64,000 nucleotides of DNA from Actinocorallia sp. API 0066 (GTDB lineage Bacteria > Actinomycetota > Actinomycetes > Streptosporangiales > Streptosporangiaceae): contig NZ_JAJLQY010000010.1 of the NCBI RefSeq assembly GCF_020991275.1, positions 248,001 through 312,000 on the forward strand, given 5' to 3'. Below, piece after piece: positions 38,455 through 55,314 of this stretch. Made by a program: the position numbers and the translations under genes. How positions within the stretch are numbered: position 1 is the first letter of the stretch; each line of letters begins with the position of its first letter. The notes beneath the pieces are model-generated. The model saw nothing but the letters and a program-made list of their open reading frames with translations, searched no databases and had not been told where the DNA came from.

Positions 38455-38537
38455 AGATCTTGGAAAAACGCGATACCTCTTCAGAACGGATTGTGCGCAG
38501 CGCCGCGCCCCAACGTCCGGACTCAGGGGGGTTCAGG

Positions 38538-39770
38538 ATGGGTGTGGTCGGGCGCGCCGAATCTCCCGAGTGGCCGCGGTCACTCGACATGCGCGGGCTG
38601 CTCGCGGCGGGCTGGCGGCCGACGCCGTTCCAGGAGTTCGTGCTCAAGATCCACAGCCGCTGCAACCTGTCGTGCGACTACTGCTACATGTACGAGATGG
38701 CCGACCAGGGGTGGAAGAGCCAGCCCCGCCGGATGGCCCGGCCGATCATCGACCAGGTGGCGCGGCGCGTCGCCGAGCACGCCAGGGAGAACCTGCTCCG
38801 CAAGGTCGGCATCACCCTGCACGGCGGCGAACCGCTGCTCGCCGGGCCCGAACACGTCAGGTACGCGGTCGAGGCGATCCGGGACGCCGCGCACCCCGAC
38901 GTCGAGGTCGAGTTCACCGTGCAGACCAACGGCGTGCTCATCGACACCGACTTCCTCGACCTGTTCGCCAAGTTCGGCGTCTCGGTCGGCGTCAGCCTCG
39001 ACGGCGACGAGTCCGGCCACGACCTGCACCGCAAACGCGCCGACGGCAGGGGCAGCCACCGCGACGTCATGGCGGGCATGCGGGCCCTGACGTCACCCGC
39101 CTACCGCGACCTGTTCACCGGCTTCCTGGCCACCATCGACCTGCGCAACGACCCCATCGCCACCTACGAGGCGCTGCTCGCGCACGACCCGCCCGGCGTC
39201 GACTTCCTGCTGCCGCACGGCAACTGGACGACGCCCCCGCCCGGCCGCCTCCCGGACTCCTCCACCCCCTACGCGGACTGGCTCATCACCATCTTCGACC
39301 GCTGGTACCACGACCCCGGCCGGACCCGCGTCCGCCTCTTCCTGGAGATCATCAGTCTCCTCACCGGCAAGTACTCGGCGAGCGAGGCGGTCGGTCTCTC
39401 CCCGATCTCCATGGTCGTCGTCGAGACGAACGGGCGCATCGAGCAGGTGGACACACTCAAGTCGGCGTTCGAAGGCGCCGCCGGCACCACACTGCACGTC
39501 TCCCGCGATCCGTTCACCACGGCGTTGATGCACCCGTCCATCGCCGCCCGCCAGATCGGCGTCCGCGCGCTGTCGGAGACATGCCGGTCCTGCCCTCTGC
39601 ACCGGGTGTGCGGGGGCGGCCACTACACCCACCGGTACCGGACGGGGACGGGCTTCCTCAACCCTTCGGTCTACTGCGCCGATTTGAAGCGCCTCATCAC
39701 CCACGTGCACGACGTCGTCAGCGCCGACGTGGCGAGGCGGCGGGTCGGCCACGCCGCCCCGCCGCCCTGA
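38538..39770 (+). CDS. fxsB: FxsB-type radical SAM/SPASM peptide maturase, copy A
   Basis: 410 residues from ATG 38538 behind a G-rich site. Radical SAM cluster Cys at C42, C46 and C49 (CNLSCDYCY), SAM-binding GGEP in LHGGEPLLAGP, and a C-terminal SPASM region with C349, C352, C358 and C380. The opening GWRPTPFQEFVLKIHSRC and the block DFLLPHGNW are hallmarks of the FxsB family, which forms strained three-residue cyclophanes between an aromatic side chain and a backbone-neighbour carbon in short peptides. The likely substrate is the small peptide at 42579-42719. A second copy lies at 52689-53966. Confidence 0.9.
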   Translation: MGVVGRAESPEWPRSLDMRGLLAAGWRPTPFQEFVLKIHSRCNLSCDYCYMYEMADQGWKSQPRRMARPIIDQVARRVAEHARENLLRKVGITLHGGEPLLAGPEHVRYAVEAIRDAAHPDVEVEFTVQTNGVLIDTDFLDLFAKFGVSVGVSLDGDESGHDLHRKRADGRGSHRDVMAGMRALTSPAYRDLFTGFLATIDLRNDPIATYEALLAHDPPGVDFLLPHGNWTTPPPGRLPDSSTPYADWLITIFDRWYHDPGRTRVRLFLEIISLLTGKYSASEAVGLSPISMVVVETNGRIEQVDTLKSAFEGAAGTTLHVSRDPFTTALMHPSIAARQIGVRALSETCRSCPLHRVCGGGHYTHRYRTGTGFLNPSVYCADLKRLITHVHDVVSADVARRRVGHAAPPP

Positions 39771-39785: not shown

Positions 39786-42293
39786 TCAGATCGGCGGCGG
39801 GTCGAAGTCCGCGTCCAGGTGCCTGCCGTCGAGGAACACCCTGACGTCGGGGTGGTCGAGACCGAGGGTCCGCGCGTAGGCGGACTTCGTCCCCTCGTAC
39901 AACTCCGCCGCCTCTTCCTGCTCGCCGAAGGCGAGCAGATCCGCAGAGAGGTTGGCCGCGCACAGCAGCGCCATCGGGTGCTCCCCGCCCAGCAGGGCGC
40001 TCAGCCGCCGCAGCGTGCCGCGTCCCAGCCGGACGGCGGACTCCAACTCACCGAGCAGCGCGAGGTCACTGGCCAGGTTGGTGGTGACGGTCAGCGTGTA
40101 GTGGTGGTCCCGGCCCAGGCTCCGGTCGAGGCCCTCAAGCGCCTCCTCGTTGAGCCTGCGCGCGTCCTCGGGGTCGCCGATGACCCGGCGCATGATCGCC
40201 AGGTTGCCGATGCAGCCGTGGTTGTAGGGGTGCTGGGGCCCGTACACGCGCGGGTACCGCCGTACCGTGTCGGCCGCGAGGTCGAGCGCCTGCTGGGCCT
40301 CGCCCATCGTGCGGAGCACGTTCGCCAGGCCCATCGCGGCCGAGAGCGTGTCGGGGTGGTCGAGCCCGTAGAGGCTCACGAGCCGCGCGTGCGTCGAGGT
40401 GGCCAGTTCGAGGGCGCCTTCCAGGTCGCCGAGCCGCCGCCAGGCGACCGACAGGTCCTTTGCCGCGCGCAGCGTCCACGGGTGGTCGGCGCCGATCGTG
40501 GACAGCGCGAACGCGTGCGCGTCCTGGCCGATGTCGGCGGCCTCGGCGTAGTCGCCGCACAGCCGGACCGCGCGGGCCAGGCCCGTCCAGGCGTTGGCCA
40601 TGCTGCTCTGGTCGAGCGCCGAGGACCCCATGTACGCCCGCTTGTGCAGTTCCTTCGCCTTCTGGTACCTGCTGCTCAGCCCGTAGTCGAGCGCGAGGTT
40701 GTTCAACGCGCGGATGGTGGCGCGGTCCTCGTCGCCGAAGCGCTGCTGGCACCTTTCGAGCGCCTGTTCGCCCACCTCCAGGGCCCTGCGGAAGTTCCCG
40801 GAGGCGCGCAGGTCGGCGGGGCGGCCGCGCAGGAAGCGCAGCGTGAGCTCGTGGTCAGGACCGACCGACTTCTCGGCCTTGATCAACCACTGCTCGTTGT
40901 ACTGGGCCGCTTCGCCGTACCTGCCCAGTTCGCGCAGCAGGTTGCCGTACTCCAGGGCCATGCTGAGGACATCCTCGTGGTCCTCACCCGAGCGGGTGGA
41001 CCAGGTCTGGAGGAACTCCTCGGCGAACGTGCGCTGCGAGACGAGGTTGCCGGAGCTGAAGAGGTACCTGACGACGTTCAGCGCCATCTGCCGGACCGCC
41101 GGAGCATCGCAGAACCTGACGCCCGCGGGCTCGACGTGGCCGAGCAGGTTCTGGAAGCGCTCCCAGTTCTTCTGGTCGTCCGGGTCGTCGGGCGCGTAGG
41201 CGGCGAGCAGCACGTGCACCTCGTGCTGGAGCACCTGCTGCTCGTCCTGGCTCAGCCCCTCCCGGAGCAGCGCCTGGATCAGCCGGTGGATCTGAAGGGT
41301 GCGGCCGGGGATGTCCAGCCGCGCGAGCGCGAAGCGGCCGAGCTCGCCGACGGCCTTGCTCGTCGCGATCGGGTCGGCGATGAGCGTCTGGAGCTCGGGG
41401 CCGAGCTGGGCCCGCACCTCGGGACGGACCTGGGTGAAAGCGTCGCGCGGGATCGGCTCGGGTCCGAAGAAGGCGCAGCAGCGCAGCAGGTAGAGCGCGT
41501 CGGGCATCTTGCCCTTGAGGCTCTCCACGGAGATGGCCCAGGCCGCCGTCATCGACACCGGGTACTCGGAGGGCTTGCCCTCGGACAGCAGCTGCGAGGT
41601 GCGTTCGGTGAGCAGCCCGAGGTACTCCTCGACGCTCATGCCCGTCTCGGCCTGGAGCGCGCCCGCCTGCTCCAGCGCGAGCGGCAGGTCGCCCAGCTCG
41701 TGCGCGAGTCGCTCGGCCTCCTCGCGGCTGATCGCCTGCGGCACCCGCTTGGTGAGGAACTCGACGCTCTCGGCGCGGTCGAAGACGTTGATGGCGAGCG
41801 TGTCCACCACGCCCTCCCAGCGGTGGTTCCGGGAGGTGATGAGAACGTGCCCGGTGCCCTGCGGGAGCAGTTCGAGCAGATCCTCCGGCTGGTCGGCGTT
41901 GTCGAAGACGAGCAGCCAGCGCGCGTAGGGCTCGCCGCGCCGCAACGCGTCGAGTACCGCGTTCGCCGCGTCCTCGATGCCGCTCGAACTCGCGGGCGGC
42001 ACGTCCAGGTAGGGCGCGAGACCCGCGAGTGACGACCTGACGAGGACGGGCTGGTCGGCGGGGATCCACCAGACCAGGTCGTACTCGTCGCGATGGCGGT
42101 GGGCGTACTCCGCGGCGAGCTGGGTCTTGCCGACGCCGCCGAGCCCGTGCAGCGCGTGCGGGACGACGGCCGTGGGCTGGCTCGCGATGCTGGCGCGCAG
42201 CTTGCCCAGGGACTCCTCGCGTCCGGTGAAGTTCTTGAGGCGAGGCGGCACCTTGCCCCACACCGCCGGGGCCTGCCTCGACACCACACTCAT
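39786..42293 (-). CDS. fxsT: FxsT-like NB-ARC/TPR protein
   Basis: 835 residues. A FTGRE lead-in (22-26), NB-ARC ATPase with P-loop GLGGVGKT (50-57), Walker B in WLLVFDNAD (about 125), sensor segment GHVLITSRN, then from about residue 430 a tail of kinesin-light-chain-like TPRs with repeated LG.DHP.TL patterns, ending DADFDPPPI. This is the FxSxx-COOH system TPR partner of FxsB enzymes, a STAND-type molecular switch. It converges on copy A maturase (15-bp gap) and diverges from the peptide gene across 285 bp. Unlike its homologue at 48702-52766, it lacks a vWA domain. Confidence 0.9.
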   Translation of the reverse strand: MSVVSRQAPAVWGKVPPRLKNFTGREESLGKLRASIASQPTAVVPHALHGLGGVGKTQLAAEYAHRHRDEYDLVWWIPADQPVLVRSSLAGLAPYLDVPPASSSGIEDAANAVLDALRRGEPYARWLLVFDNADQPEDLLELLPQGTGHVLITSRNHRWEGVVDTLAINVFDRAESVEFLTKRVPQAISREEAERLAHELGDLPLALEQAGALQAETGMSVEEYLGLLTERTSQLLSEGKPSEYPVSMTAAWAISVESLKGKMPDALYLLRCCAFFGPEPIPRDAFTQVRPEVRAQLGPELQTLIADPIATSKAVGELGRFALARLDIPGRTLQIHRLIQALLREGLSQDEQQVLQHEVHVLLAAYAPDDPDDQKNWERFQNLLGHVEPAGVRFCDAPAVRQMALNVVRYLFSSGNLVSQRTFAEEFLQTWSTRSGEDHEDVLSMALEYGNLLRELGRYGEAAQYNEQWLIKAEKSVGPDHELTLRFLRGRPADLRASGNFRRALEVGEQALERCQQRFGDEDRATIRALNNLALDYGLSSRYQKAKELHKRAYMGSSALDQSSMANAWTGLARAVRLCGDYAEAADIGQDAHAFALSTIGADHPWTLRAAKDLSVAWRRLGDLEGALELATSTHARLVSLYGLDHPDTLSAAMGLANVLRTMGEAQQALDLAADTVRRYPRVYGPQHPYNHGCIGNLAIMRRVIGDPEDARRLNEEALEGLDRSLGRDHHYTLTVTTNLASDLALLGELESAVRLGRGTLRRLSALLGGEHPMALLCAANLSADLLAFGEQEEAAELYEGTKSAYARTLGLDHPDVRVFLDGRHLDADFDPPPI

Positions 42294-42578: not shown

Positions 42579-42719
42579 ATGCAGCGCTTGACGCCTCAAC
42601 AGGACTCCCTGCTGATCGACATCGAGGGGCTCGCCGCCAGCGACACGGCCCTAGACCTGGTACTGGGCCGCAAGGCCACGATCGGCATAGGCGGGTTCGA
42701 CAACAAGATGGCCCAGTGA
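42579..42719 (+). CDS. Candidate cyclophane RiPP precursor A (FDNKM motif)
   Basis: 46 residues with an excellent site (GGAGG, 4-nt spacer) before the ATG. Residues 1-32 look like a helical acidic leader (SLLIDIEGLAASDTALDLVL), residues 33-39 are Gly-rich, and the tail is F40-D41-N42-K43-M44-A45-Q46. The FxSxx-COOH end of classic substrates is absent, but an aromatic-X-X triplet (F-D-N) is placed where the core should be. The peptide at 53950-54117, beside the second maturase, carries the same FDN[K/R]M. Too short for most gene finders. Prediction from position and motif; not a match to a family I can name with certainty. Confidence 0.7.
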   Translation: MQRLTPQQDSLLIDIEGLAASDTALDLVLGRKATIGIGGFDNKMAQ

Positions 42720-42784
42720 GGCCAACCCGCGCGATTATGCCGTGCGGCACCGATTCACCGGACGAGGACTGATAGCCACGGAGC

Positions 42785-44515
42785 GTGGATTACGCTGCGA
42801 GGACTGACGCCCCGATTGGATTCAGCGAGTCTCCCCGATTGCCGATCCAGTCGGGGCACCGCGACATCGCGTCCATGAACCGGGTGGTCCGAGTGCCAAA
42901 TCCCTCACCCGCACAGCGCAGCCTTTCCGCACGGTCCGACCCCGGTGAAACCACAGACACCTCAGGTTTCTCCGGCGCATTTCCCCGCCCCCGGGAACTC
43001 GCCGGTCTCACGGAAATGTGGCGGCACACCCGCCTCACCCTCCTGAGCGGCGAGTCGGGGGTGGGCAAGTCCCATCTCGTGGAGCGGGCGGCCCGGTCTC
43101 TGAAAGACGCGCTTCCCGTCGGCCGGGTGACGCACCGCCCCGCCTTCCCGATGACGGTCCTGCCCCCGCAGAACCCGTTCGTCTTCCCACTGCTGAGCTG
43201 CTGGTTCCCGGACGTCCCGCCGACCCGCCTCGCGGACGCCGACCTGACCGGATTCCTGCGCGCGGCGACCGGAGCCGGGCCCTACCGGGAGTCCGCGCCG
43301 GTCCTCCTGTGCGTGGACCAGGCCGAACCGCTCTTCCAGCCCTCGCCGCACGAGCCGGCGAACCGGGAGGCCGAGCGCGCCGCGTTCCGCGCCCTCCTCG
43401 GCCGGACCCTCACGGACCTGCCGCACCTGCGGCTTCTGCTCGTCGTGCGCGACACCCACCTGGACGAGGCGAAGGCGTTCGCCGAGACGGCGGCGCCGGG
43501 CGTGTCCACCGGGGCGCTCACCGTGCGGCGCCTCACCCCGGCGGACGCGGCAGCGGCGACTGCCGGGGACGACGCGGCGGCCCCCGTCGTCGGCGCGGTC
43601 GTCGAGGAGCTGTGCACCGTCCGGCGCGGCGACGGACACCGCGTCCGGACGTCCTCGTTCGACCCCGGCCTGTTCCAGGCGGCGTACCGCGCGGTCGCCG
43701 AGCGCGCCGCGGCCCACGATCCGCGGTTCGACCCGGCGGCCGAGGTGGACGCGGCGCTCGCCCTGCACCTGACCCAGACCCTCAACCTCGTCGCCGACGA
43801 CCACGCCTGGATCTCCCGCATCGAGCTGGAGCGCGGCTTCCGTGCCGTGTTCGTCGACCAGACGGCCCCCGGGCCGCTCGACGACCGCTGGACGTCCGTG
43901 CTGCGCGCCCTTGAGGACAGGGGCCTCCTCACGAGCGTCAGGGACGCCGGGGGCACCGGGTACACGCTGCGGCACCGCAAGCTCGTGGACGCGGCCCGCG
44001 CCCCCTCCGGCGGCCTCGTCCCCCTGATCCGGCCGACCGGCGAGGCCCGGCTCCGCGAGTCGGCGGCGGCGCTCTGGCACGGCGACCACGCGCTGGCCCG
44101 CGCGCACGCCGAGAGCGTCGCACGGGCGCACGCCGAGACGCACGACCCGGCCGAGCCGGGCGCGCGGCGGACGGGCGGCGAGGAGCCCGACCCGGTGGTC
44201 GGCGCGCACGCGCTGTGCCTGCTCGGCGACATCACCCACGCGCGCGGCACGGCGGACGGCTCCGCCGACTCCCTGGCCCGGGGCGCGCACGAGGCGGTGG
44301 CGTGCTACGAACGGGCGGCGCTCATTCTCACCGCGGCGGGCAACGCGCCGCTCGTCGCCTATCTGCTCGCCGCCATCGGGCTGCTCACCCTTCCGGAGGA
44401 CCCGGTTTCGGCCCTGCACAAACTCCATTCGGCAGCCGCCCGCGTGCCGGGTGACACATTTATCCAGAGCACACTCACCCGCGCGCTCACCAGGACAAAT
44501 AGTCCAAAAGGCTAG
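42785..44515 (+). CDS. STAND-type P-loop ATPase next to the RiPP precursor
   Basis: 576 residues from GTG 42785; the start is weak and ATG 42875 is an alternative. Walker A GESGVGKS (89-96), Walker B VLLCVDQAEPLF (about 175), sensor LLLVVRDTHLD, then a helical winged-helix-like block and a C-terminal helical tail (ALCLLGDITHAR...AVACYERAALILTAAG) that looks TPR-like. This is the layout of nSTAND-class switches in conflict systems. Transcribed 65 bp behind the precursor, so it probably senses or delivers the peptide signal. The N-terminal 70 residues are disordered and unmatched. Confidence 0.65.
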   Translation: MDYAARTDAPIGFSESPRLPIQSGHRDIASMNRVVRVPNPSPAQRSLSARSDPGETTDTSGFSGAFPRPRELAGLTEMWRHTRLTLLSGESGVGKSHLVERAARSLKDALPVGRVTHRPAFPMTVLPPQNPFVFPLLSCWFPDVPPTRLADADLTGFLRAATGAGPYRESAPVLLCVDQAEPLFQPSPHEPANREAERAAFRALLGRTLTDLPHLRLLLVVRDTHLDEAKAFAETAAPGVSTGALTVRRLTPADAAAATAGDDAAAPVVGAVVEELCTVRRGDGHRVRTSSFDPGLFQAAYRAVAERAAAHDPRFDPAAEVDAALALHLTQTLNLVADDHAWISRIELERGFRAVFVDQTAPGPLDDRWTSVLRALEDRGLLTSVRDAGGTGYTLRHRKLVDAARAPSGGLVPLIRPTGEARLRESAAALWHGDHALARAHAESVARAHAETHDPAEPGARRTGGEEPDPVVGAHALCLLGDITHARGTADGSADSLARGAHEAVACYERAALILTAAGNAPLVAYLLAAIGLLTLPEDPVSALHKLHSAAARVPGDTFIQSTLTRALTRTNSPKG

Positions 44516-44695
44516 GCGTGTCCGCTGACACGCCACCGAGAAAGCAGGAAACGGGAACACGAAACCGAGGTTCCGCTACGATCGGGCGTGATCGAGCCGT
44601 CTCCGCAGTGACCCCGCGTTCAGACAGCCTTGAATCCGCACGCTCCGCAAACCCTTTGGTCTCCCACCAGGGTCAGGGCATCCAACCAGGGGTCC

Positions 44696-44707
44696 TGTCA
44701 TATGACA
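44696..44707. promoter_or_regulatory. Perfect palindrome TGTCATATGACA ahead of the exporter gene
   Basis: A 12-bp perfect palindrome immediately 5' of an intrinsic terminator and 80 bp before the exporter start. It could be an operator that works with the terminator to control the exporter. Confidence 0.35.
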
Positions 44708-44712
44708 AAAGA

Positions 44713-44736
44713 CCGGGCCGCGCCCGGCCCTTTTTT
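44713..44736 (+). terminator. Intrinsic terminator between the STAND ATPase and exporter genes
   Basis: CCGGGC, 3-nt loop, GCCCGG, then CCC and six T (44731-44736). One of the few T-tailed terminators in the window. It separates the precursor/ATPase unit from the exporter 50 bp downstream, unless read-through is regulated. Confidence 0.8.
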
Positions 44737-44786
44737 GTTTGCGTGCGGAGGGGAATTGCGCCTGGAATTCAAAGGAGCTCAGCACG

Positions 44787-46202
44787 GTGAGCCCCAGCCC
44801 TGCGTGGCGCACGCCCTTCCGCTATCTCCTCGCCGGATCGGCCGCCTCCCGGGTGGGCGTCATCAGCGCCTCGACCGCGAGTCCCCTGCTCGCGCTCTCC
44901 CTCGGCAGTTCGGCCGTCTACGCGGGCTGGATCGCGGCGGCCGGCACCCTGCCGGGACTTCTCGTGCACATTCCCGCCGGCCATTTCGCCGACCTGCTCG
45001 ACCGGCGCCGCCTCATGCTCGTCAGCCAGACGGTGCGGTGCCTGTCGACGGCCGTCGTCCTACTCGGCCTGTTCTTTTCCGACCATCCGCTGCGCTTCCT
45101 GCTCGTCGGCGCCGCGATCGAAGGGATCTGCGCCGCGTTCTACCACGTCGCCGAGGTCAAGGCGGTCCGTGACCTCGTGCCCGACGAGGAACTGGAGGGC
45201 GCGCTCGCGCTCAACGAGGCGCGCAACAACGTCGCGCTGGTCTTCGGCAGGCCCGTCGGCGGCTGGACTTTCGGCCTGCACTACACACTGCCCTACGCGC
45301 TGAACACCCTCACGTCGCTGATCTCGTTGTTCACGCTCTCGCGGGTGCCCGCCCGCCCGAAGGACGAGGCCGCGCCGTCGGCCGCCTCCCCGGAGCCGTC
45401 ACGGCCCGGACGGCACGGACGCGACGAGCCGGGCGCGGGCATCTGGGCGGGCCTCGACCGGATCTGGCGTGACGCGTTCCTGCGGAACGTCGTGCTGGTC
45501 TGCGCGCTCGCGAACTTCCTGTTCCAGATCACCATTCTGATGCTGGTCATCAAGGCGCACTCCCAGGGCTACTCCTCGACCCAGATCGGCCTGTACATGA
45601 TGACGACCGGCGTCAGCGGCCTGCTCGGCTCGCTCGCCGGGCCGCGCCTGGTGCGCCGCGCGACCCGGCGCGGGACGCCCACCGCGTTCGTCGCGTGCTG
45701 CTTCGCCCTGTGGGTGGTGCTGCTGTGGGGGGTGTGGGCGGCGGGCCCGGCCGTGCTCGGCCTCGCCGCCTGGGGCCTGTGCAGTTTCTTCGGCTCTCTC
45801 GTCAACATCGTGCTCGCCGCCTACCAGGCGCAGGTGCCCGCGGAGATCCTCGGCAAGGTCACCAGCACGAGCAAGTTCATCACCACCGGCGCGGTCTCCC
45901 TGGGCGCGCTGTCCTCGGGCTACGCGGTCGAGGCGTTCGGTCCCGACACGACGGCCTTCGCCGTCGCCGTCTGCATCACCGCCGTCGTCGCCGTCAGCGC
46001 CTGGAACTCCCGCGCCGAGCTCCGCCACGCCCTCACCGCGCTCCGCCGTCCCGTGGCCAAGGCCGAACCCGTGATCCTGCTCGCCGCGCCCGTGGCGGAA
46101 GCGCCTCCGATGGTCGACCAGGGACGTCCCGGGCCGGACCCGGGCGAGCCGGAAGAGGCGGGACGGCGGCCGGATGCGGCCAATGCGGTTTCCCGGCGGT
46201 GA
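44787..46202 (+). CDS. MFS transporter, probable exporter
   Basis: 471 residues from GTG 44787, set by AAAGGAG 9 bases upstream; the ATG at 44739 lies in the terminator and is rejected. Twelve membrane helices can be traced, with the MFS loop motif HFADLLDRRRLMLVSQTV between helices 2 and 3. The first half carries ALNEARNNVALVFGRPVGGW, typical of the EntS-like exporter group. Between the RiPP unit and the VMAP cassette, it is the best candidate for peptide or product export, but the substrate is inferred. Confidence 0.87.
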   Translation: MSPSPAWRTPFRYLLAGSAASRVGVISASTASPLLALSLGSSAVYAGWIAAAGTLPGLLVHIPAGHFADLLDRRRLMLVSQTVRCLSTAVVLLGLFFSDHPLRFLLVGAAIEGICAAFYHVAEVKAVRDLVPDEELEGALALNEARNNVALVFGRPVGGWTFGLHYTLPYALNTLTSLISLFTLSRVPARPKDEAAPSAASPEPSRPGRHGRDEPGAGIWAGLDRIWRDAFLRNVVLVCALANFLFQITILMLVIKAHSQGYSSTQIGLYMMTTGVSGLLGSLAGPRLVRRATRRGTPTAFVACCFALWVVLLWGVWAAGPAVLGLAAWGLCSFFGSLVNIVLAAYQAQVPAEILGKVTSTSKFITTGAVSLGALSSGYAVEAFGPDTTAFAVAVCITAVVAVSAWNSRAELRHALTALRRPVAKAEPVILLAAPVAEAPPMVDQGRPGPDPGEPEEAGRRPDAANAVSRR

Positions 46203-46287
46203 CCGGCGCTTGACCGTACAGTCTTCACCGGAGTTCGGGTGATCTGTCGGTCGGCTCTGCCGCGGACGGGAGCGGAGGCGCGGACGG

Positions 46288-47745
46288 GTGCCGTGGTCGG
46301 GCGAGTTCGGGGACCTGCGACTGCTGGTCACGGCGTTCCTGGAGACCGGGGCGATGCGTCGGCGCGGCACCCGCGACCTGTTCCTGTCCGCCCTGAACAA
46401 GAGCCTGTCCCGGCCGGTCAGCCCGCCGCGCCACCCCGAGGACGCCCTCGACATGCTGGCCATCGTCACGGCCTGCCTCGACCATCCGGGCGTGCTGCAC
46501 ACCCTCGTGGAGACGATCGAGTCGTTCTACGCGGGCAGCGAGTCCGTCCGTAGGCTGCGCTCGCTGGTGGACGCGCTGGTGCCGGAGCCGCTCATCGACA
46601 CGGCGCAGCGCAGGGAGCTGTACGGGCTGGTGGAGGCGGTGGAGCGGACGGGCCTGCACCCGGACGCGCAGACCATGCTGCCCGCCCTGTACCGCGCGGC
46701 CGTCGGCCCGGTCGCGCCGCCGCCGAGCGGGCCGGTCGCGGGGATCGGCGACCTGCTCGCGGAGCTTGAGGACGCGCCGCTGCGGCCGGACGGCGGCGTC
46801 CCGCTGCTGGCGTTCACCGCGTCGCTCGCGGCGCTCGCCAAGGGCAGGGGCGCGTCCGCGCTGCACGCCTGGACCGGGCGGGCGGCCGCCCGGCTCGGGG
46901 TGCCGCCGCCCGAGGTGGACCCGCGCGCGCTGGCGGGCGGCGACCCCGCCCGGTCGGACGTCGCGTACCTGATGGTCGAGTACCGGCCGTCGGGCGCCGA
47001 TCCGCGCCGGTTCGTCGCGTCGGCGTGGTTGCAGATCAACACCGAGCCGCGCACGCCGCTGGTGCTGGAGGACGAGCCGCGCCCGCTGCACGCGCTGCCG
47101 GGCCTGGTGGACGGCCTGCTCACCGGCGATCCCCGGGTCGTCGGCAGGCATGTGCCGGACCTCGTTGTGGAGTTCGTGCTGCCGCGGAGCCTGCTCGGCC
47201 TCGGCGTCGACCAGTACCCGTACTCGGCGGGCGGCGTGCGCAGGCCGCTCGGCCTCGACTACCCCGTTGTGGTGCGCAGCCTGGAGCGCGCGGCGGACGC
47301 GTCGCTGCGGCACAGCCTGCGCCGCAAGTGGGGCTGGTTCACCGCACATCCGGCGGCGGGCGAGGCGACGCTCGTGCGCAGTCCGGGTGAGCACCGGGTC
47401 GAGCAGCTCTACGCGCTGCTCGCGGAGAACTCCAAGGTCTGTCTCGCGCTCGCCTTCCCGCCCCTGGACGGGCACCCGTCGGACGAGCTCGCGGTGGGCC
47501 TCGCCGCGGGCACGCCCATCGTGCTGTGGTGCCGTGAAGGTGGCGACTCCGCACGTTTCATTCCCGACATCCGGGACATGCTGAACTCCGATCTCATGTC
47601 CCTCCCCCAGAAGATCAAGGATCTGCGGATCCGGGCCGCGCAGACAGCGGAGGACGCCCACCTCGGCCGTCACCTGACCCTGCTCTTCGAGGACGCCGAC
47701 CGACTTCCCGAACCCCCAGCACCGCTCCGCCCACCCGAGGGCTAG
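46288..47745 (+). CDS. VMAP protein: effector-associated domain plus VMAP-C
   Basis: 485 residues from GTG 46288 (GGAGG upstream). Residues 1-95 are a small helical death-like effector-associated domain (EAD) with AIVTACLDHPGVLHTLVETIESF; the cyclase-like protein at 54334 ends in the same pattern. Residues 215-485 match the C-terminal domain of vWA-MoxR-associated proteins, including YPVVVRSLERA and a long basic-acidic tail with AFPPLDGHPSDELAVGLAAGTPIVLWCR. It is followed 15 bp later by a MoxR ATPase gene and then a vWA protein, the standard VMAP ternary order. VMAP proteins are scaffolds linking effectors to the ATPase. Confidence 0.8.
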   Translation: MPWSGEFGDLRLLVTAFLETGAMRRRGTRDLFLSALNKSLSRPVSPPRHPEDALDMLAIVTACLDHPGVLHTLVETIESFYAGSESVRRLRSLVDALVPEPLIDTAQRRELYGLVEAVERTGLHPDAQTMLPALYRAAVGPVAPPPSGPVAGIGDLLAELEDAPLRPDGGVPLLAFTASLAALAKGRGASALHAWTGRAAARLGVPPPEVDPRALAGGDPARSDVAYLMVEYRPSGADPRRFVASAWLQINTEPRTPLVLEDEPRPLHALPGLVDGLLTGDPRVVGRHVPDLVVEFVLPRSLLGLGVDQYPYSAGGVRRPLGLDYPVVVRSLERAADASLRHSLRRKWGWFTAHPAAGEATLVRSPGEHRVEQLYALLAENSKVCLALAFPPLDGHPSDELAVGLAAGTPIVLWCREGGDSARFIPDIRDMLNSDLMSLPQKIKDLRIRAAQTAEDAHLGRHLTLLFEDADRLPEPPAPLRPPEG

Positions 47746-47760
47746 GCGGCAGGAGGAGAC

Positions 47761-48705
47761 ATGACGACGCACGAGGACTGGCGCATCTACCGGGGCGACA
47801 ACACCCCGCACGACGGGATCGCCGCGCTCCCGCCACCACCCCCGTGGCGGCGCTTCGGCGGCTCGGAACGGGCCGAGACCTACCAGGCCGAGCCCCGCGT
47901 CGTGGACCGGGTGAACGCCGCGATCCTCCTGCGCAGGCCGCTCCTGGTGACGGGCAAGGCGGGCACCGGCAAGTCCACGCTCGCGCACAGCGTCGCGCAC
48001 GAGCTGCGGCTCGGCCCCGTCCTCACCTGGTCGATCACCAGCAAGAGCACGCTGGACAAGGCGCTCTACGACTACGACGCGATCGGCCGCGTCCACGAGA
48101 GCAGCATGCGCCTGCCCACGACCGACATCGGCCGCTACCTCAGGCTCGGCCCGCTCGGCACCGCGCTCCTGCCGGGCGAGCGTCCGCGCGTCCTGCTCAT
48201 CGACGAACTCGACAAGAGCGACATCGACCTTCCGAACGACCTCCTCAACGTCTTCGAGGAGGGCTCCTACCGGATCCCCGAGCTCGAACGCCTGCCCGCC
48301 GAACAGGAGGTCGTCGAGGTCATGGTGGACGGCAGCGGCGAGCGGTTCCCGATCACCAGGGGCCGGGTGCGGTGCGCGGCGTTCCCGGTCGTCGTCATCA
48401 CCAGCAACGGGGAGCGGGAGTTCCCGCCCGCGTTCCTGCGCCGGTGCGTCCGGCTGTCGATCGAGCCGCCGAGCCGGGCCCAGCTCAGCCGGATCGTCGA
48501 GGCGCACCTGGGCGCGGCGGGCGTGACGGCCGGGCACGCCGTGATCGAACGGTTCCTCGCCGCCCGCAACAAGGGCGAGCTGGCCACCGACCAGCTCCTC
48601 AACGCGCTGCACCTGGCGCTGTCCGGCGCCCGGCCCGAGGAGGAGAGCCTGGACGGCCTCATCGAGGCGCTGCTGCGGCCCCTGGACATCGCGGGCTCGG
48701 AATGA
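47761..48705 (+). CDS. MoxR-family AAA+ ATPase of a VMAP conflict cassette
   Basis: 314 residues with AGGAGGAG before the ATG. Walker A TGKAGTGKS (64-72), Walker B VLLIDELDKSD (about 147), sensor 1 VVITSNGEREFPPAFLRRC, and arginine finger region FLRRC. Typical MoxR length and order. In VMAP systems this ATPase works with the vWA protein encoded next to it as a chaperone-like or NTP-dependent switch. Its stop overlaps the downstream start by ATGA, so the pair is translationally coupled. Confidence 0.9.
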   Translation: MTTHEDWRIYRGDNTPHDGIAALPPPPPWRRFGGSERAETYQAEPRVVDRVNAAILLRRPLLVTGKAGTGKSTLAHSVAHELRLGPVLTWSITSKSTLDKALYDYDAIGRVHESSMRLPTTDIGRYLRLGPLGTALLPGERPRVLLIDELDKSDIDLPNDLLNVFEEGSYRIPELERLPAEQEVVEVMVDGSGERFPITRGRVRCAAFPVVVITSNGEREFPPAFLRRCVRLSIEPPSRAQLSRIVEAHLGAAGVTAGHAVIERFLAARNKGELATDQLLNALHLALSGARPEEESLDGLIEALLRPLDIAGSE

Positions 48706-51700
48706 CCGACGACCTCCTCGCCGCGCTGCGCGCGCTGCACCCCCGGCCGTCGCCGGAGGAGGTCGCCGACGCGCTCTGGCTCGCCGAGCGGATGCGCGGC
48801 GGCGACGCACCGGAGCCGTCGCCGCCGCCCCCGGCGGCGCCGCCCGAGCCCGTCCCGGAGACCGGGCCGCCGACGCCCGCCGTGGCCGGTTGGCCGGACG
48901 GCGCGGCGGAACCGGCGGGCGGGACGGCACCGGGCCCGTCGCCCGGAATGTCGGTGTTCCTCGCGGGGGAGACACCGGACTCCGCGTCGCCGCTGCTGGT
49001 GCGCGCCCCCGCGCCGCCCGCGATCCCGCGCGCGCTCCGGCTCGCCAGGGCGCTGCGCCCGCTGCGGGCCCGCGTCCCGTCCCGGACCCGGCACGAGCTG
49101 GACGAGGAGGGCACGGCCCGCCAGTTCGCCGAGACGGGCGTGTGGCGGCCCCGGCTCGTGCCCGAGCGGGAGCGCTGGTTCGACCTCGCCCTCGTGGTGG
49201 ACACGGGCCGGTCGATGGCCGTGTGGCGGCGCACCGCCGAGGAGTTCGCGGCGGTGCTGGAGCGGGTCGGCGCGTTCCGCGACGTGCGGCTGTGGCGGCT
49301 GGACACCGACCGTCCGGGGCCGCCGCGCCCGGTGCCGGGCACCGGTTCCGGCCGCAGCCCCGACGAGCTCGTCGACCCGACCCGTCGCCGCCTCATCCTC
49401 GTCTTCAGCGACGGCATCGGCGCGGCCTGGGCGGACGGCAGGGCCGGGCTGCTGCTGGAGCGCTGGGCCGCCGCCGGGCCCGTCGCCGTCGTCCAGCCGC
49501 TGCCGGAGCGGCTGTGGCCCCGGTGCGCGGCCCGGATCGAACACGTCACGCTCACCGCCCCCGCCCCCGCGGTGCCGAACGCGCGGCTCGGCGTCCGGAC
49601 GCGGGACGGCGGGCCCGTCCCGCCCGGCCTGCCGATCCCGGTGCTGGAACTCGAACCGCACTGGCTCGCGGGCTGGGCGACCCTCGTCACCCGCGGCTGC
49701 CGGGACGCGCCGGGCGCCGCCCTGTTCACCCGTGACCCGCGCGGGGAGCCGCGCGGCGCGGCGGACCCGGCCAAGGCCACACCCGAGCCCGGCGCGGTCG
49801 AACGGGTGCTGCGCTTCCGCGCGACGGCGTCGCCGCGCGCGTTCCACCTCGCCTGCTACCTCGCCGCCGCGCCGCTGCGGCTGCCGGTGATGCGCCTGGT
49901 CCAGCGGGCCATGCTGCCCGACTCGACACCCGCCGACCTGGCCGAGATCTACCTCAGCGACCTGCTGCGGGTCGTCGGCGGCGCGGCCGACCCCGACGAG
50001 CTGACCTACGGGTTCCGCGAGGGCGTCAGGTCGGTGCTGATCGGCGCGCTGCGGCGGGGCGAGGCGCTGCGGGTGCTGCGCGAGGTGTGGCGGGTGATCC
50101 GCACCCACCACGGCTCGTCCCTCGACTTCCCGGCGCTGCTCACCGCGATCCAGCAGGACGGCGCGCACCTGCCGCCCGACCAGGCGTTCGCCGAGGTGAC
50201 GGCGGAGGTGCTGGGCAGGCTCGGCGGCAGGTACGGCGACATCGCCAAGCTCATCACCGCGCGGGCCGAGGAGATGTTCGGCCCGAGCGGCCCGGACGGC
50301 CCGGCGCCGGCCGCGTTGGGGGCGCCCGCCGCGCCCGTCCGGGGGCCGCTGCCGCGCCGCAACCCGCACTTCACCGGGCGCGAGGCGCTGCTCGGCACGC
50401 TCCGGCAGCGGCTGGAGACGGGCGAGGTCGCCGTCCTGCTGCCGCCGCCGGGCGGGAGCCCCGGCGGGGAGGGCAAGTCGCAGCTCGCCGTGGAGTACGC
50501 GCACAAGTTCGGCGACGAATACGACATCGTCTGGTTCATCCCGGCCGACCAGATGCCGCTCGCCCGCTCCGCGCTCGCCGACCTCGCCCGCGAACTCGGC
50601 GTGCCCGAAAGCGACAGCTTCGAAGGCATCGTGGAATCCCTGCTCGACACGCTCCGCGCGGACACCGGACGGCGCTGGCTGCTCGTCTTCGACAACGCGC
50701 GCGACCCCGAGGAACTGCTCCCCGTGCTGCCGCTGGCGTCCCGGACGGGCGACGGGCCGCTGCGCACGTCACAGCCGACCGGGCACGTGCTCGTCACCTC
50801 GCAGAACCGCGAGTGGGCGCGGCTCGCCGACCCCCTCTCGGTCGACGTCTTCGAGCGGCAGGAGAGCGTCTCCTACCTGTGCAGCCGGGTGCCCGACCTT
50901 ACGGCGGAGGAGGCCGACCAGGTGGCCCGGCGGCTCGGCGACCTGCCGCTCGCCGTCGAGCAGGCCGCGGGCTGGCTCAGCACGACGGGCGAGGGCGCCG
51001 CCGCGTACCTGCGGCTGTTCGATCCCCGGCTGGCCGCGCTGGAGCTGGCCGAGCCGCCCGAACACATCCCGTCCTACCTCGCCGCCGCGTTCGGCCTGAA
51101 CCTCGACCGGCTCAGCGACAAACACCCGAGGGTCAAGGGGCTGTTCGACCTGTGGGCCTACTTCGGCCCGGAGCCCGTCTCCGCCGTCCTGCTGTCCTAC
51201 GGGCGCGACCTGCCGCCGCCGCTCGGCGACGTCCTCGGCGACGACGCCGAACTACGCGCGGCGCTCCGGCTCATCGACAGGTTCCGGCTCGCCCACTACG
51301 ACCCCGGGCACGGCGCCCTCCAGATCCACAGGCTCGTCCGGGCCATGCTGCGGCGGCGGCTGAGCGAGGCGGAGCGTGCCGACGTCAGGGGACGGGTCCA
51401 CACGATCCTCGCCGCCGCCGTCCCCCCGCACCAGCCCGACGACGAGACGACCTGGGCCAGGCGCGCCCTGGTCACCCCGCACGTGCTGCCGTCGCACATC
51501 ATCGACAGCCCCGTCCGCGACCACCGGGCCGTCGCGCTCGACCAGGCCCAGTACCTCAACCTGTCCGGCGACTTCGCGGGCGCCCGCACCCTCGCCGAAC
51601 GCGCCCTCGCCCGGTGGGGCGGCACGCCCGACGACGAGGTCGCGCTCGGCACGTCCCGCGCCCTCGCCAACGCGCTGCGCGGGCTCGGCGACATCCGCAC

Positions 51701-52766
51701 CGCCGCCCGGCTCAGCGCCACCACGCTGGAGCGGGCCCGCCGCGCGCTCGGCCAGGACCACCCGACGACGCTGTTCACCGCGCTCGGCTACGGCGCCGAC
51801 CTGAAGAACATGGGGGCGTTCGCCGAGGCCGTCGCGCACGACCTGGACACCTGGCGGAAGATGGAGCGCCGCTACGGCCGCGACAGCGCCCAGTACACGC
51901 ACGTCGCCGCGGGCAACCTCGCGCTCGGCTACCGGCTGCTCGGCGAGTTCCACAAGGCGTACGAGATCGACCGCTCCGCGCTCGGCTCGCTGCGCGACAA
52001 CCGGGCGCCCCGCTACCGCGACATCTTCAACTTCACCCACCACGTGGCGCGCGACCTGCACGGGCTCGGCAGGTACGAGGAGGCGCTGGCGATGCAGCGG
52101 CAGAGCCTGGAGTCCCGGGACCCGGTGCTCAGCCCCGACCACGCGCTCGTGCTCCAGGCGCGGATGAGCCACGCGGGCACGCTGCGCGAGCTGGGCAGGC
52201 ACACCGAGGCCGAGCGGATGGCCGCCGAGGCGTTCCAGGCGCACGTGCGGCGGTTCGGCGACGGCCACCCCAACACGCTCGCCGCCAAGAGTTCGCTCGC
52301 GCTGGCCCGGATGGCGCTCGGCCAGGTCGAGGAGGCGCACCGGACACAGCGCGAGGTGTGGCACGACCTGCGGCGGATCATGGGCGAGCGGCACCCCTTC
52401 GTGCACGCGCGCGCGGGCGGGGTCGCGGCGGCGCTGCGCGCGATGGGCGACCCGGCGGCGGCGTACGGCTTCGACCGGGCCGCTGTGGAGGGGCTTGCCG
52501 ACGCGGGAGGCGGCCGCCTGTACTACCGGCTGTGCGTGCTCGTCGGCATGGCGCACGACCTGTATCTGCTGGGCGAGCCCGAGCCGGCGCTCCGGTTCGG
52601 CGGGGAGGCGCACCGGGGCATGGTGAAGCTGCTGGGCGACGCCCACCCGCACACCGTCGCGTGCGCGCGCAACCTCCGGCTGATCGAGTCAGCCGTCCAC
52701 GTCGCCAAGGATCCGCCCGAGCACGACAGGTTCCTTGAGTGCCTGGTCGAGCCCGTCGCCCTGTGA
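48702..52766 (+). CDS. Giant vWA (SAV_2336-like) - NB-ARC - TPR fusion protein
   Basis: 1354 residues. Residues 1-110 low-complexity; about 130-540 a SAV_2336-type vWA domain with the metal-site pattern VDTGRSMAVW (about 163-172) and LVFSDGIGAAW; about 560-830 an NB-ARC ATPase with FTGREAL lead, P-loop SPGGEGKS (about 582-589, Ser replacing the first Gly), Walker B WLLVFDNARD and DLPLAVEQAAGWL; about 935-1340 TPRs with LG.DHP.TL patterns. The second half is homologous to the free-standing FxsT-like protein at 39786. Its last 78 bases overlap the copy B maturase on the other strand. Confidence 0.87.
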   Translation: MTDDLLAALRALHPRPSPEEVADALWLAERMRGGDAPEPSPPPPAAPPEPVPETGPPTPAVAGWPDGAAEPAGGTAPGPSPGMSVFLAGETPDSASPLLVRAPAPPAIPRALRLARALRPLRARVPSRTRHELDEEGTARQFAETGVWRPRLVPERERWFDLALVVDTGRSMAVWRRTAEEFAAVLERVGAFRDVRLWRLDTDRPGPPRPVPGTGSGRSPDELVDPTRRRLILVFSDGIGAAWADGRAGLLLERWAAAGPVAVVQPLPERLWPRCAARIEHVTLTAPAPAVPNARLGVRTRDGGPVPPGLPIPVLELEPHWLAGWATLVTRGCRDAPGAALFTRDPRGEPRGAADPAKATPEPGAVERVLRFRATASPRAFHLACYLAAAPLRLPVMRLVQRAMLPDSTPADLAEIYLSDLLRVVGGAADPDELTYGFREGVRSVLIGALRRGEALRVLREVWRVIRTHHGSSLDFPALLTAIQQDGAHLPPDQAFAEVTAEVLGRLGGRYGDIAKLITARAEEMFGPSGPDGPAPAALGAPAAPVRGPLPRRNPHFTGREALLGTLRQRLETGEVAVLLPPPGGSPGGEGKSQLAVEYAHKFGDEYDIVWFIPADQMPLARSALADLARELGVPESDSFEGIVESLLDTLRADTGRRWLLVFDNARDPEELLPVLPLASRTGDGPLRTSQPTGHVLVTSQNREWARLADPLSVDVFERQESVSYLCSRVPDLTAEEADQVARRLGDLPLAVEQAAGWLSTTGEGAAAYLRLFDPRLAALELAEPPEHIPSYLAAAFGLNLDRLSDKHPRVKGLFDLWAYFGPEPVSAVLLSYGRDLPPPLGDVLGDDAELRAALRLIDRFRLAHYDPGHGALQIHRLVRAMLRRRLSEAERADVRGRVHTILAAAVPPHQPDDETTWARRALVTPHVLPSHIIDSPVRDHRAVALDQAQYLNLSGDFAGARTLAERALARWGGTPDDEVALGTSRALANALRGLGDIRTAARLSATTLERARRALGQDHPTTLFTALGYGADLKNMGAFAEAVAHDLDTWRKMERRYGRDSAQYTHVAAGNLALGYRLLGEFHKAYEIDRSALGSLRDNRAPRYRDIFNFTHHVARDLHGLGRYEEALAMQRQSLESRDPVLSPDHALVLQARMSHAGTLRELGRHTEAERMAAEAFQAHVRRFGDGHPNTLAAKSSLALARMALGQVEEAHRTQREVWHDLRRIMGERHPFVHARAGGVAAALRAMGDPAAAYGFDRAAVEGLADAGGGRLYYRLCVLVGMAHDLYLLGEPEPALRFGGEAHRGMVKLLGDAHPHTVACARNLRLIESAVHVAKDPPEHDRFLECLVEPVAL

Positions 52767-53966
52767 GCCGGTGAGGCCCGCGAGGTCGGCGCGGACCCGG
52801 CCGCCGATGTGCCCGATGAGCGCCCGCAGGTCGGCGCAGTAGACCGACCGGTTGAGGTAGCCGCTGCCCGCCCGGTACCGGTGCGCGTAGGCGCCGCCGC
52901 CGCACACGTCGCGCACCGGGCAGTCCCGGCACTCCCCGCACAGCGCGGCCAGCCCGATCTGCCGGGCGACGACGCCGGGGTGCGCGAGCGCCTCGTCGAA
53001 GGAGTTCGCGAAGACGGTCAGGCCCGTCTCCGGGGCGCCCGGATAGGACGTCTTCAGCGTGTCCACCTGCTGGAGCGTCCCGTCCGTCTCGACCACCAGC
53101 ATGACGACGGGCGACAGGCCGATGTTCTCGGTGGCGCTCGCGCCGCCCAGCGTCAGGTTGAGGATCTCCTCGAAGAGCCGCACCCCGGTCTCCTGCGGGT
53201 CGGCGCCGTACCAGCGGTCGAACGCGGCGATCATCCACTCGGCGTAGCGCGTCGGCCCGCCGTCGGGGCGCAGGCCGGGCGGGGGCGCGTCCCAGGTGCC
53301 GTGCGGCAGCAGGAAGTCGATCTGCGGCGGCGACGTCGCCAGCAGCGCCTCGTAGGTCGCGACGGGGTCGTTGGCGGTGTCCACCGCGCACAGCAGGCCC
53401 CGGTAGAGGTGCCGGTAGCGCCCGGCGAGCAGCTCCAGGCCCTTCGTGACGGCCGGGTGGCTGCCCTTGCCGTTGGGGAAGCGGCGGTGCCTGTCGTGCG
53501 CCGTCGCGTCCCCGTCGAGACTGACCGCGACGCCGACGCCGTGCGCGTCGAGCAGGTCGAGCGTCGGCTCGTCCAGGAGCACGCCGTTCGTCTGGAGGCT
53601 CAGATCCACGCGGCAGCCCGCCGGGACCGCCGCCCTGACGGCCGTCGCGACGAGCTCGATGGTCGCCGCCCCGGCCAGCAGCGGTTCGCCGCCGTGCAGG
53701 ACGACCTCGACCGCGCCGAGCCCGTGCCGCGCGGCGTGCTCGGCGATCCGGTCCGCGGCGCGGCGCACCACCGCGTCCCCGACGGCTCGGGGACGGCTCC
53801 GCCACGACTGGTCCGCGGATTCGTAGACATAGCAGTAATCGCAGGCGAGATTGCAGCGCCCGTGCACTTTCAGGATGAATTCGCGAAAGGGCTCCGGCCG
53901 CCATCCGCGCGCGTGCAGCGCGGATATGTCAAGGCCGGAGTCAGGCCATTCAGTCGCGCGGTTCAC
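52689..53966 (-). CDS. fxsB: FxsB-type radical SAM/SPASM peptide maturase, copy B
   Basis: 425 residues from GTG 53966. Cluster cysteines C38, C42 and C45 (CNLACDYCY), LHGGEPLLAGA, LQTNGVLLDEP, the DFLLPHGTWDAPPPG block, and a SPASM region with CGECRDCPVRDVCGGGAYAHRY and SVYC. About half identical by eye to copy A, differing most at the N- and C-termini. The start overlaps the last 17 bases of the candidate precursor gene, so translation is probably coupled and gives the strongest enzyme-substrate link in the island. Same predicted chemistry as copy A. Confidence 0.9.
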   Translation of the reverse strand: MNRATEWPDSGLDISALHARGWRPEPFREFILKVHGRCNLACDYCYVYESADQSWRSRPRAVGDAVVRRAADRIAEHAARHGLGAVEVVLHGGEPLLAGAATIELVATAVRAAVPAGCRVDLSLQTNGVLLDEPTLDLLDAHGVGVAVSLDGDATAHDRHRRFPNGKGSHPAVTKGLELLAGRYRHLYRGLLCAVDTANDPVATYEALLATSPPQIDFLLPHGTWDAPPPGLRPDGGPTRYAEWMIAAFDRWYGADPQETGVRLFEEILNLTLGGASATENIGLSPVVMLVVETDGTLQQVDTLKTSYPGAPETGLTVFANSFDEALAHPGVVARQIGLAALCGECRDCPVRDVCGGGAYAHRYRAGSGYLNRSVYCADLRALIGHIGGRVRADLAGLTGSQGDGLDQALKEPVVLGRILGDVDG

Positions 53967-54117
53967 GCCTTCGCATCCGGTTATCGAAGTAGGCGACCGG
54001 GGTCTGCGGGTCACGGCACTCGCGCAGCCGGCGCACCAGGGCAACTCTCAGCGCGGGACGGGGGAGCACGGAAGTCTCTGGTTCGGTCGGCGTCATCCCG
54101 TTGCGCTGGTCGTGCAC
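53950..54117 (-). CDS. Candidate cyclophane RiPP precursor B (YFDNRM motif)
   Basis: 55 residues from GTG 54117, which has GAAGGGA 6 bases upstream; ATG 54096 (48 residues) is the alternative. The N-terminal part is a polar, then helical leader (ALRVALVRRLRECRDPQTPV), the core-like part is Y43-F44-D45-N46-R47-M48, and the tail is basic (RRREPRD). Both Y-F-D and F-D-N fit an aromatic-X-X cyclophane triplet. FDNRM matches FDNKM of the peptide near copy A. Its stop overlaps the maturase start. It also contains one Cys (C34) of unclear role. Prediction from context and shared motif. Confidence 0.7.
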   Translation of the reverse strand: MHDQRNGMTPTEPETSVLPRPALRVALVRRLRECRDPQTPVAYFDNRMRRREPRD

Positions 54118-54333
54118 AGACGGTCCCTTCTCGGACGGGGAAAGAAAAGATCGCGCGCGGCACCCGGGCCCGGAAACCCGCGTCGGCCCGTGGCGATCTT
54201 TCCGCATCATAGGCCACACCCGCCTCCGCGGGCCTGCGCCTCGCATAATCGGTGAAGTGTGTCATCAACGCTTGTGAACGCCTGTCATACAGCGCACAGT
54301 TACCGCAGTGCGTCGGGTGGAAGGCGGGTGGGG

Positions 54334-55314
54334 ATGGCGGAGAACCGGTGGGCCCCTTCGGGCGCGTGCCTGCTGTTCGCGTGCGACGTGGTGTCCTACG
54401 GCGACGCGCGGCGCACCGACGACGTCCAGGAGTACGTGCGCGCCGGCCTGTACCGCGCGCTGGAGGCGTCCTTCGGCCACGCGGGCATCCCCTACCAGGG
54501 CGTCTACATGGAGGACAGGGGCGACGGGACGATCGCCGCGGTCCCGCCCGAGTACGATCCCGCGCTGCTCGTGACGGCGTTCTTCGACAGGCTCAGGGCC
54601 GAACTGAAGCGCTACAACCGGCTCGCGAGCGAGGTCGCCCAGATCCGGCTGCGGATGTCGGTGCATCCGGGCGTCGCCAAGTTCGACGGGAGGGGCCTGG
54701 TCGGCACCGACGCGAACCACCTGTGCCGGCTGCTCGACGCCCTCTCCTTCAAGACCGCGATGGCCGACACCGGCGCCACGCTCGGCCTCATCGTCAGCGA
54801 GCGGTTCCACACCGACGTCGTGCGCCGGGACAGCGGGGTGATCGACCCCGACGAGTACCGGCCGCTGCGCGTCGCCGTCAAGGAGACCGACTGTGTGGGC
54901 TGGGTGCGGCTGCCCCCGCCGCCCGCGCCGGTCGTCCCGCTGGACGCCGGGGGCGAGGAGGTGGCGCGGCGCGACGAGCGGGCGCCCGCGTCGGGGCCGC
55001 CGTGGCGGGACCACGAACCCCGGGTCGCGCCCTCGATGGCCTGGACCGTCGTCGTGCAGCGGGCCATGGAGGTGCCCGCGATGCTCGTCGAACGCACCCG
55101 CGAGGCGGTCGTGCAGGCGCTCGGCCCGCAGATCGCCTCGGTGATCCCCCGCTCGAACGACGCGCGGACCGACGTCATCGCGATCGTGCGGACCTGCCTT
55201 GACCACGGTGACGGGATGGTGCGGTTCTTCGACGCGGTGCGGTTCGTGGCGGGCGAGACGGCTTCCGTGCAGCGGTTGGGGGAGACGATTGCCGAGTACT
55301 GGGACGAGTTGTAA
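54334..55314 (+). CDS. Nucleotidyl-cyclase-like protein with C-terminal effector-associated domain
   Basis: 326 residues from ATG 54334. Residues 10-190 have the class III cyclase plan: metal Asp D18 in ACDVVSY and a second Asp D64 in EDRGDGTIAAV, then RMSVHPGVAKFDGRGLVG and NHLCRLLDALS. Both metal aspartates are kept, so catalysis is possible. Residues 245-326 form an EAD with AIVRTCLDHGDGMVRFFDAVRF, matching the N-terminus of the VMAP protein at 46288. Homotypic EAD pairing would recruit this cyclase to the VMAP scaffold as an effector. Confidence 0.75.
   Translation: MAENRWAPSGACLLFACDVVSYGDARRTDDVQEYVRAGLYRALEASFGHAGIPYQGVYMEDRGDGTIAAVPPEYDPALLVTAFFDRLRAELKRYNRLASEVAQIRLRMSVHPGVAKFDGRGLVGTDANHLCRLLDALSFKTAMADTGATLGLIVSERFHTDVVRRDSGVIDPDEYRPLRVAVKETDCVGWVRLPPPPAPVVPLDAGGEEVARRDERAPASGPPWRDHEPRVAPSMAWTVVVQRAMEVPAMLVERTREAVVQALGPQIASVIPRSNDARTDVIAIVRTCLDHGDGMVRFFDAVRFVAGETASVQRLGETIAEYWDEL

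Follow-up and report, generated by a model that had tools for sequence, protein, structure and literature searches.

What do two short open reading frames (ORFs) encode when each is associated with its own radical S-adenosylmethionine (SAM)/SPASM maturase of the cyclophane-forming FxsB type? We addressed this question in a 64,000-nucleotide stretch of the Actinocorallia sp. API 0066 genome (contig NZ_JAJLQY010000010.1, positions 248,001 to 312,000 of the forward strand; hereafter the window), which contains ORF A and ORF B together with the maturases FxsB-A and FxsB-B. An earlier note on this DNA had proposed that the two ORFs, sharing FDN[K/R]M, represent a variant class of precursor peptides. 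The genes, their conservation in fixed slots, the exchange of Asn for Ser between relatives and the gene neighbourhood are directly established, and sequence comparison indicates that the ORFs represent a genuine Asn variant of FxsA precursors, conserved and housed in a doubled locus.

Both ORFs were found where the note had placed them (Table 1). ORF A, on the plus strand, is preceded by a GGAGG-type ribosome-binding site, translates as MQRLTPQQDSLLIDIEGLAASDTALDLVLGRKATIGIGGFDNKMAQ, ending FDNKMAQ, and lies 2.8 kb from FxsB-A with an antisense FxsT gene in between. ORF B, for which no strand had been given, is on the minus strand: it starts with GTG at 54117, runs down to 53950 and contains ...TPVAYFDNRMRRREPRD, while the plus-strand reading of the same segment gives a different peptide. 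It overlaps the start of FxsB-B by 17 bases, counted to a possible GTG start of the latter. Both maturases pass the FxsB model TIGR04269, in agreement with their earlier assignment, and are under the cut-offs of XyeB (122 and 127 vs 450 bits for FxsB-A and FxsB-B, respectively) and GrrM (115 and 91 vs 310 bits). They fall into two separate, distant clades of an FxsB tree (local support 99), which was built by FastTree and in which 145 of the 176 rows were labelled. Two further FxsB genes above the cut-off occur elsewhere in the same genome (L012 and L013, contigs C3 and C6), with candidate precursors carrying FNAAL and FDDTA cores. Among seven window proteins scanned with PADLOC, a set without FxsB-B, FxsB-A alone was matched, by two viperin models across its radical SAM core.

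The 15-base pattern encoding FDN, then K, N, S, R, H or Q, then M, occurred twice in the window, in ORFs A and B, vs none in 100 shuffles. These were also its only two matches in the entire 7.01-Mb genome (reversed control, none), bearing out the judgement that the shared pentapeptide is unlikely by chance. Across 100 family genomes the pattern had 20 matches in 17 genomes, and only three of these, ORFs A and B and one in genome G049, were near an FxsB, as judged by contig. Because of this, the pattern by itself is not diagnostic, although the pattern together with its position is, and we rejected a bare match as evidence of kinship. The leaders are otherwise dissimilar, as had been noted: the summed score of the A leader against 5 of 21 B leaders was reached by 443 of 1000 shuffles. 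Its summed score against six chosen A-type leaders, two of which gave nothing, was reached by none of 1000, and that of the B leader against the 21 B leaders by 13 of 1000, most single comparisons being non-significant. Each window leader thus appears, weakly, to resemble its own family.

Conservation of the small ORFs beside homologous maturases had been named beforehand as the refuting test, and relatives were found in both slots. The B-type slot is the ORF just upstream of FxsB-B relatives; the A-type slot lies about 2.6–4.2 kb downstream of FxsB-A, past the antisense FxsT gene. FxsB genes above the cut-off were present in 60 of the 100 family genomes, with several convergent pairs 14–18 kb apart. 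Among named genomes, the top 15 relatives of FxsB-B were all from Actinomadura, and the ORF directly upstream carried FDN in 13, FDS in one (A. pelletieri) and FTN in one, a locus with a second copy, bearing FDN, further upstream. A wider search of 341 family genomes detected a B-clade FxsB in 26 genomes of five genera, including the Actinomadura set (equal contig numbers and coordinates). Both precursor slots could be read in 24 of the 26. In G102 the contig ends too soon; in G104 the A peptide was looked for and not found, the FxsB-A match there being partial. The A peptide of G012, where FxsB-A lies on a different contig, was assigned from its strand, position and similarity. Asn A-type relatives were also present in four Nonomuraea (FDNST) and in G049 (FDNRMA). 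One A-type peptide of G101 has a doubled FDN core; at L250:13864-14181 (minus strand), such an A-type chain carries FDNRL and FDNKV.

When 23 A-type peptides were anchored on Phe, the columns carrying the most information were F, D and N/S; in 22 B-type peptides F led, followed by a leader Leu at −21, then D and then N/S. Across both types F is invariant and D nearly so, making F-D-[N/S] the most conserved three-residue stretch, and this, together with the conserved slots, supports the earlier suggestions that non-FxS precursors serve these FxsB maturases and that F-D-N is the likely triplet. The alternative suggestion for B, Y-F-D, is rejected, as the residue before F varies (mostly G/H/S in the B-type and G/R/E/S in the A-type peptides). 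The strict FDN[K/R]M motif is too narrow: the fifth residue is L, V, M, C, S or others, and in most relatives it is not M.

The third position proved to be exchangeable. Orthologues in the B slot include peptides with FDSII, FQSGM or FDSNM, and those in the A slot peptides with FDSNL or FDSGL, giving swaps such as FDNRM/FDSII and FDNKM/FDSNL between occupants of the same slot; therefore, FDN corresponds to the FxS triplet with Asn in place of Ser. The two states interchanged at least 11 times over the FxsB tree and at least three times within the B clade, where the Asn of the window peptide stands apart from that of Actinomadura with moderate support (83). Neither window peptide has the FxSxx C-terminus (Ser third, chain end two residues on), as had been observed before: Asn is third, followed by four residues in A and nine in B. 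The peptide model TIGR04268 (cut-off 28 bits) was passed by the B peptide of G067 (FDSII, 48.6 bits), a Nonomuraea A-type peptide (L173, FDNST, 33.4 bits) and the A peptide of G319 (FNS, 29.1 bits). The A peptides of G049 (FDNRMA, 20.7 bits) and G098 (FDSNL, 12.8 bits) remained below it, and the model did not match the Asn-core peptides of L144, L201, L248, L249 and L251 or the Ser-core peptides G347 A and G319 B. Since same-slot orthologues carry FDS, FQS or FNS and some pass TIGR04268, peptides A and B are, on their sequences, more readily placed within the FxsA/FxSxx family, as its Asn variant, than in a class apart.

The same variation appeared in a wider census. A profile built from 25 typed seeds, including both window peptides, was run against small ORFs close to 167 FxsB matches, among which some loci overlap. 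Its 135 matches at E ≤0.1 were reduced to 130 with distinct endings, of which 119 had E <1e-3. These comprised 49 FxS, 30 FxN, 18 FxA, 9 FxQ, 6 HxS and 4 FxD peptides and one each of HxD, HxN and YxS; triplets were placed automatically, so that FGAFN and similar ones may be misplaced. Fifty-one of the 119 end at the second residue after the triplet (one of them before) and 68 run on. The census leans to short FxsB and FxsB-B relatives, the latter raising the FxN share; 20 long FxsB matches (open frames about 730–845 aa) and the partial G005:C149 lie outside it. Among the peptides beside FxsB, some have His for Phe in the core (HQSSV, HDSMI, HDSSI, HNSSL and HQDST; L091/L160, L159, L207, L127, L135 and L132), and an unusual ending, FGAFNQHSSSPW, occurs in L077 (identical in sequence to L154) and L189, in an unclassified actinobacterial metagenome-assembled genome and a Mycolicibacterium. 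In Nocardia loci L179, L184, L191 and L203 the core is repeated two or three times upstream of FxsB (GNFNSFIENKGNFNSFI...), as if one chain could give several cyclophane peptides. Three similar precursor genes stand in tandem downstream of one FxsB in L161:14865-16675.

The two FxsB/precursor systems form one conserved locus, which the earlier note had not recognized (Table 1). A GNAT gene is followed by FxsB-A, antisense FxsT, peptide A, nSTAND1, the major facilitator superfamily (MFS) gene, EAD2-VMAP, MoxR and the large TPR protein; at the distal end come the minus-strand FxsB-B, with peptide B upstream, and a divergent EAD2 gene. Genome G085 repeats the window order from FxsB-A through the EAD2 protein, as judged by Pfam domains, with FxsT there recognized from NB-ARC plus TPR. 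By eye, GNAT-like ORFs end upstream of FxsB-A relatives in L014, L072, L073, L076 and L115. VMAP-C (PF20028) is present in the locus, as is the EAD domain PF19956, in two proteins. In the large protein the vWA domain PF05762 matched only at E 0.017, below the cut-off, and its middle, where there is no Pfam match, looks AP-ATPase-like by eye. The N-terminal part of the EAD2 protein at the distal end, also without a Pfam match, looks nucleotide cyclase-like by eye. In PMC12636437, an HExxH domain attached to a radical SAM enzyme is described as an alpha-ketoglutarate hydroxylase whose substrate is a cyclophane peptide; within 36–57 kb of the window, the only two HExxH strings are out of frame with the local genes.

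Table 1. Features of the doubled FxsB locus (window coordinates)
Feature	Position	Strand	Evidence and remarks
GNAT acetyltransferase	37939..38454	+	PF13302, E 7e-23; upstream of FxsB-A
FxsB-A, radical SAM/SPASM cyclophane maturase	38430..39770	+	TIGR04269, 472 bits (cut-off 370); start codon uncertain
FxsT, NB-ARC/TPR protein of FxSxx-COOH systems	39786..42293	-	NF040586, 996 bits (cut-off 300); NB-ARC, TPR
Precursor peptide A, 46 residues	42579..42719	+	Core GFDNKMAQ; A-type relatives at same slot
nSTAND1 ATPase	42785..44515	+	PF20703, E 7e-10
MFS exporter, candidate peptide exporter	44739..46202	+	PF07690 / PF05977
EAD2-VMAP protein	46288..47745	+	PF19956, PF19916, PF20028 (152 bits)
MoxR-like AAA+ ATPase	47761..48705	+	PF07728, E 2e-8
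Large protein with TPR C-terminus	48702..52766	+	TPR_12, E 5e-25
FxsB-B, radical SAM/SPASM cyclophane maturase	52689..53966	-	TIGR04269, 496 bits (cut-off 370); GTG start at 53966 picked by eye; alternatives possible
Precursor peptide B, 55 residues	53950..54117	-	Core YFDNRMRRREPRD; B-type relatives at same slot
EAD2 effector-type protein	54259..55314	+	PF19956, E 5e-17; divergent from peptide B

We consider it highly probable that both genes encode FxsA-type precursors of ribosomally synthesized and post-translationally modified peptides, with F-D-N as the triplet that becomes a cyclophane. Each FxsB would recognize its precursor through that precursor's own divergent leader, a pairing of enzyme and peptide that is a guess, and would link the ring of Phe to C-beta of the third residue of the triplet, Asn instead of Ser, yielding a strained three-residue F-D-N cyclophane. 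A protease might then remove the leader and perhaps the tail, the MFS protein might export the peptide, and the peptide might act as a signal or effector of the vWA-MoxR-VMAP/STAND conflict locus that holds both pairs; these later steps are guesses. The chemistry is predicted from known three-residue cyclophane-forming enzymes (3-CyFEs). A review (PMC11002830) files MscB under IPR026335 and reports that this enzyme couples C4 of Phe to C-beta of Ser; for XncB and OscB it reports a bond from C4 of Phe to C-beta of Asn. We take IPR026335 to be the FxsB entry. Because these enzymes make Phe-Ser and Phe-Asn links, the product here would most likely be a Phe-Asn three-residue cyclophane within F-D-N.

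Several results weigh against this interpretation. The window peptides match neither TIGR04268 nor any other NCBIfam or Pfam model, and peptide A was not recovered by our custom profile at E <3 despite being one of its seeds. Within the genus of the window, one of three genomes has a B-clade FxsB, and the other two have neither it nor a match to the FDN-x-M pattern. The conservation of the triplet is partly built in, A-type relatives having partly been sought by patterns with an obligatory Phe and a restricted third residue (N, S or A, for example), Asp being left free. Finally, one of the five A pairs had a pN/pS (nonsynonymous relative to synonymous differences) >1. In favour of the interpretation stand the sums over five hand-picked pairs each, 0.47 for A and 0.32 for B, and the values below 1 in nine of the ten pairs.

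The weakest competitor, to which we give practically no credence, is that unrelated small ORFs share a pentapeptide by chance. The 17 pattern matches away from any FxsB speak for it, but the pattern is unique to ORFs A and B in their genome, the slots are conserved, the summed pN/pS is below 1, and among 4123 ORFs in 14 Actinomadura loci, 30 have FDN within the last 45 residues, 26 of which are listed precursors; conservation has already refuted it. FDN[K/R] might otherwise serve a downstream protease or receptor as a site of recognition or cleavage, be conserved on that account and not be where a cross-link forms, as could be expected from the R, K, N or S that mostly follows the Asn and from the tails of many lengths. 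We think this quite improbable: this stretch lines up with the FxS triplet of TIGR04268 members, orthologues have Ser in place of Asn, and A, Q or D occupies the third position elsewhere, as expected of a variable cross-link acceptor.

Slightly better placed, and still improbable, is that one FxsB modifies both peptides, the common FDN core being its substrate, while the other serves a different or missing precursor. The cores agree on Asn or Ser in 23 of the 24 assessable genomes (18 Asn/Asn, including the window; five Ser/Ser: G067, G068, G098, G319 and G347), an agreement that is not independent of phylogeny. On the other side, the precursors occupy distinct slots, each with a particular leader family and FxsB clade, these clades are well separated, and A. 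pelletieri, the remaining genome, combines Asn in A with Ser in B. An extension of two separate FxsB/precursor systems, which we hold to be rather unlikely, is a matched cyclophane pair: long-diverged systems with unlike leaders would be retained in a single immune-type locus and tied to a common F-x-[N or S] core by a shared receptor or exporter that must recognize both products, with changes in one core driving those in the other. The agreement within the locus is striking but based on few independent changes. In the B trees, one of two independent contrasts went in the same direction and one showed no difference in A; the A tree gave a single contrast, in the same direction in most draws. 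With one to three contrasts a sign test cannot reach significance, and we do not claim the agreement as proof of coevolution.

Two features appear to be new: tailed Asn cores, most of which the family model overlooks, and the presence within one conserved locus of two FxsB/precursor pairs of ancient divergence. We found no paper on Asn-core FxsB substrates by title or abstract opening, a search outside which lie Nguyen 2020 and Sugiyama 2022, which may cover them. The FxSxx-COOH definition misses such precursors, since 30 of the 119 census peptides are FxN and 68 have residues beyond xx. If FxsB enzymes do accept FxN substrates, the chemistry of the family would become broader; a locus with two peptides gives a direct way to study the role of cyclophane peptides in VMAP conflict systems.

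The systems described here resemble the FxSxx-COOH (FxsA-FxsB) triceptide systems (TIGR04268/TIGR04269, MscB-type 3-CyFE) in maturase family, FxsT partner, leader style and the position of the aromatic-x-acceptor triplet; unlike those, the window peptides have Asn third and residues after xx, and do not match the peptide model. With the XncB (XyeB) and OscB (GrrM) triceptides, which have Phe-Asn or Trp-Asn links, they share the F-x-N triplet and the predicted bond from Phe C4 to Asn C-beta, whereas the window enzymes pass the FxsB model and are far under the XyeB and GrrM cut-offs. The setting is already known: Kaur et al. 2020 (PMC7159879) reported the coupling of VMAP ternary systems with FxSxx peptides, a radical SAM-SPASM enzyme and AP-ATPase/TPR proteins, and suggested that the peptide, once processed, might warn cells not yet infected. 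The window locus likewise unites MoxR, VMAP, EAD2, STAND/TPR, radical SAM-SPASM and small peptide genes. It differs from the vWA-MoxR-VMAP systems with a peptide-processing module in that no HExxH was found in its recognized genes, and in that its large TPR protein seems, by eye, to be fused to an AP-ATPase-like part, which the same source ties to RxD or acidic peptides and not to FxSxx. It differs from them, too, in holding two FxsB/precursor pairs.

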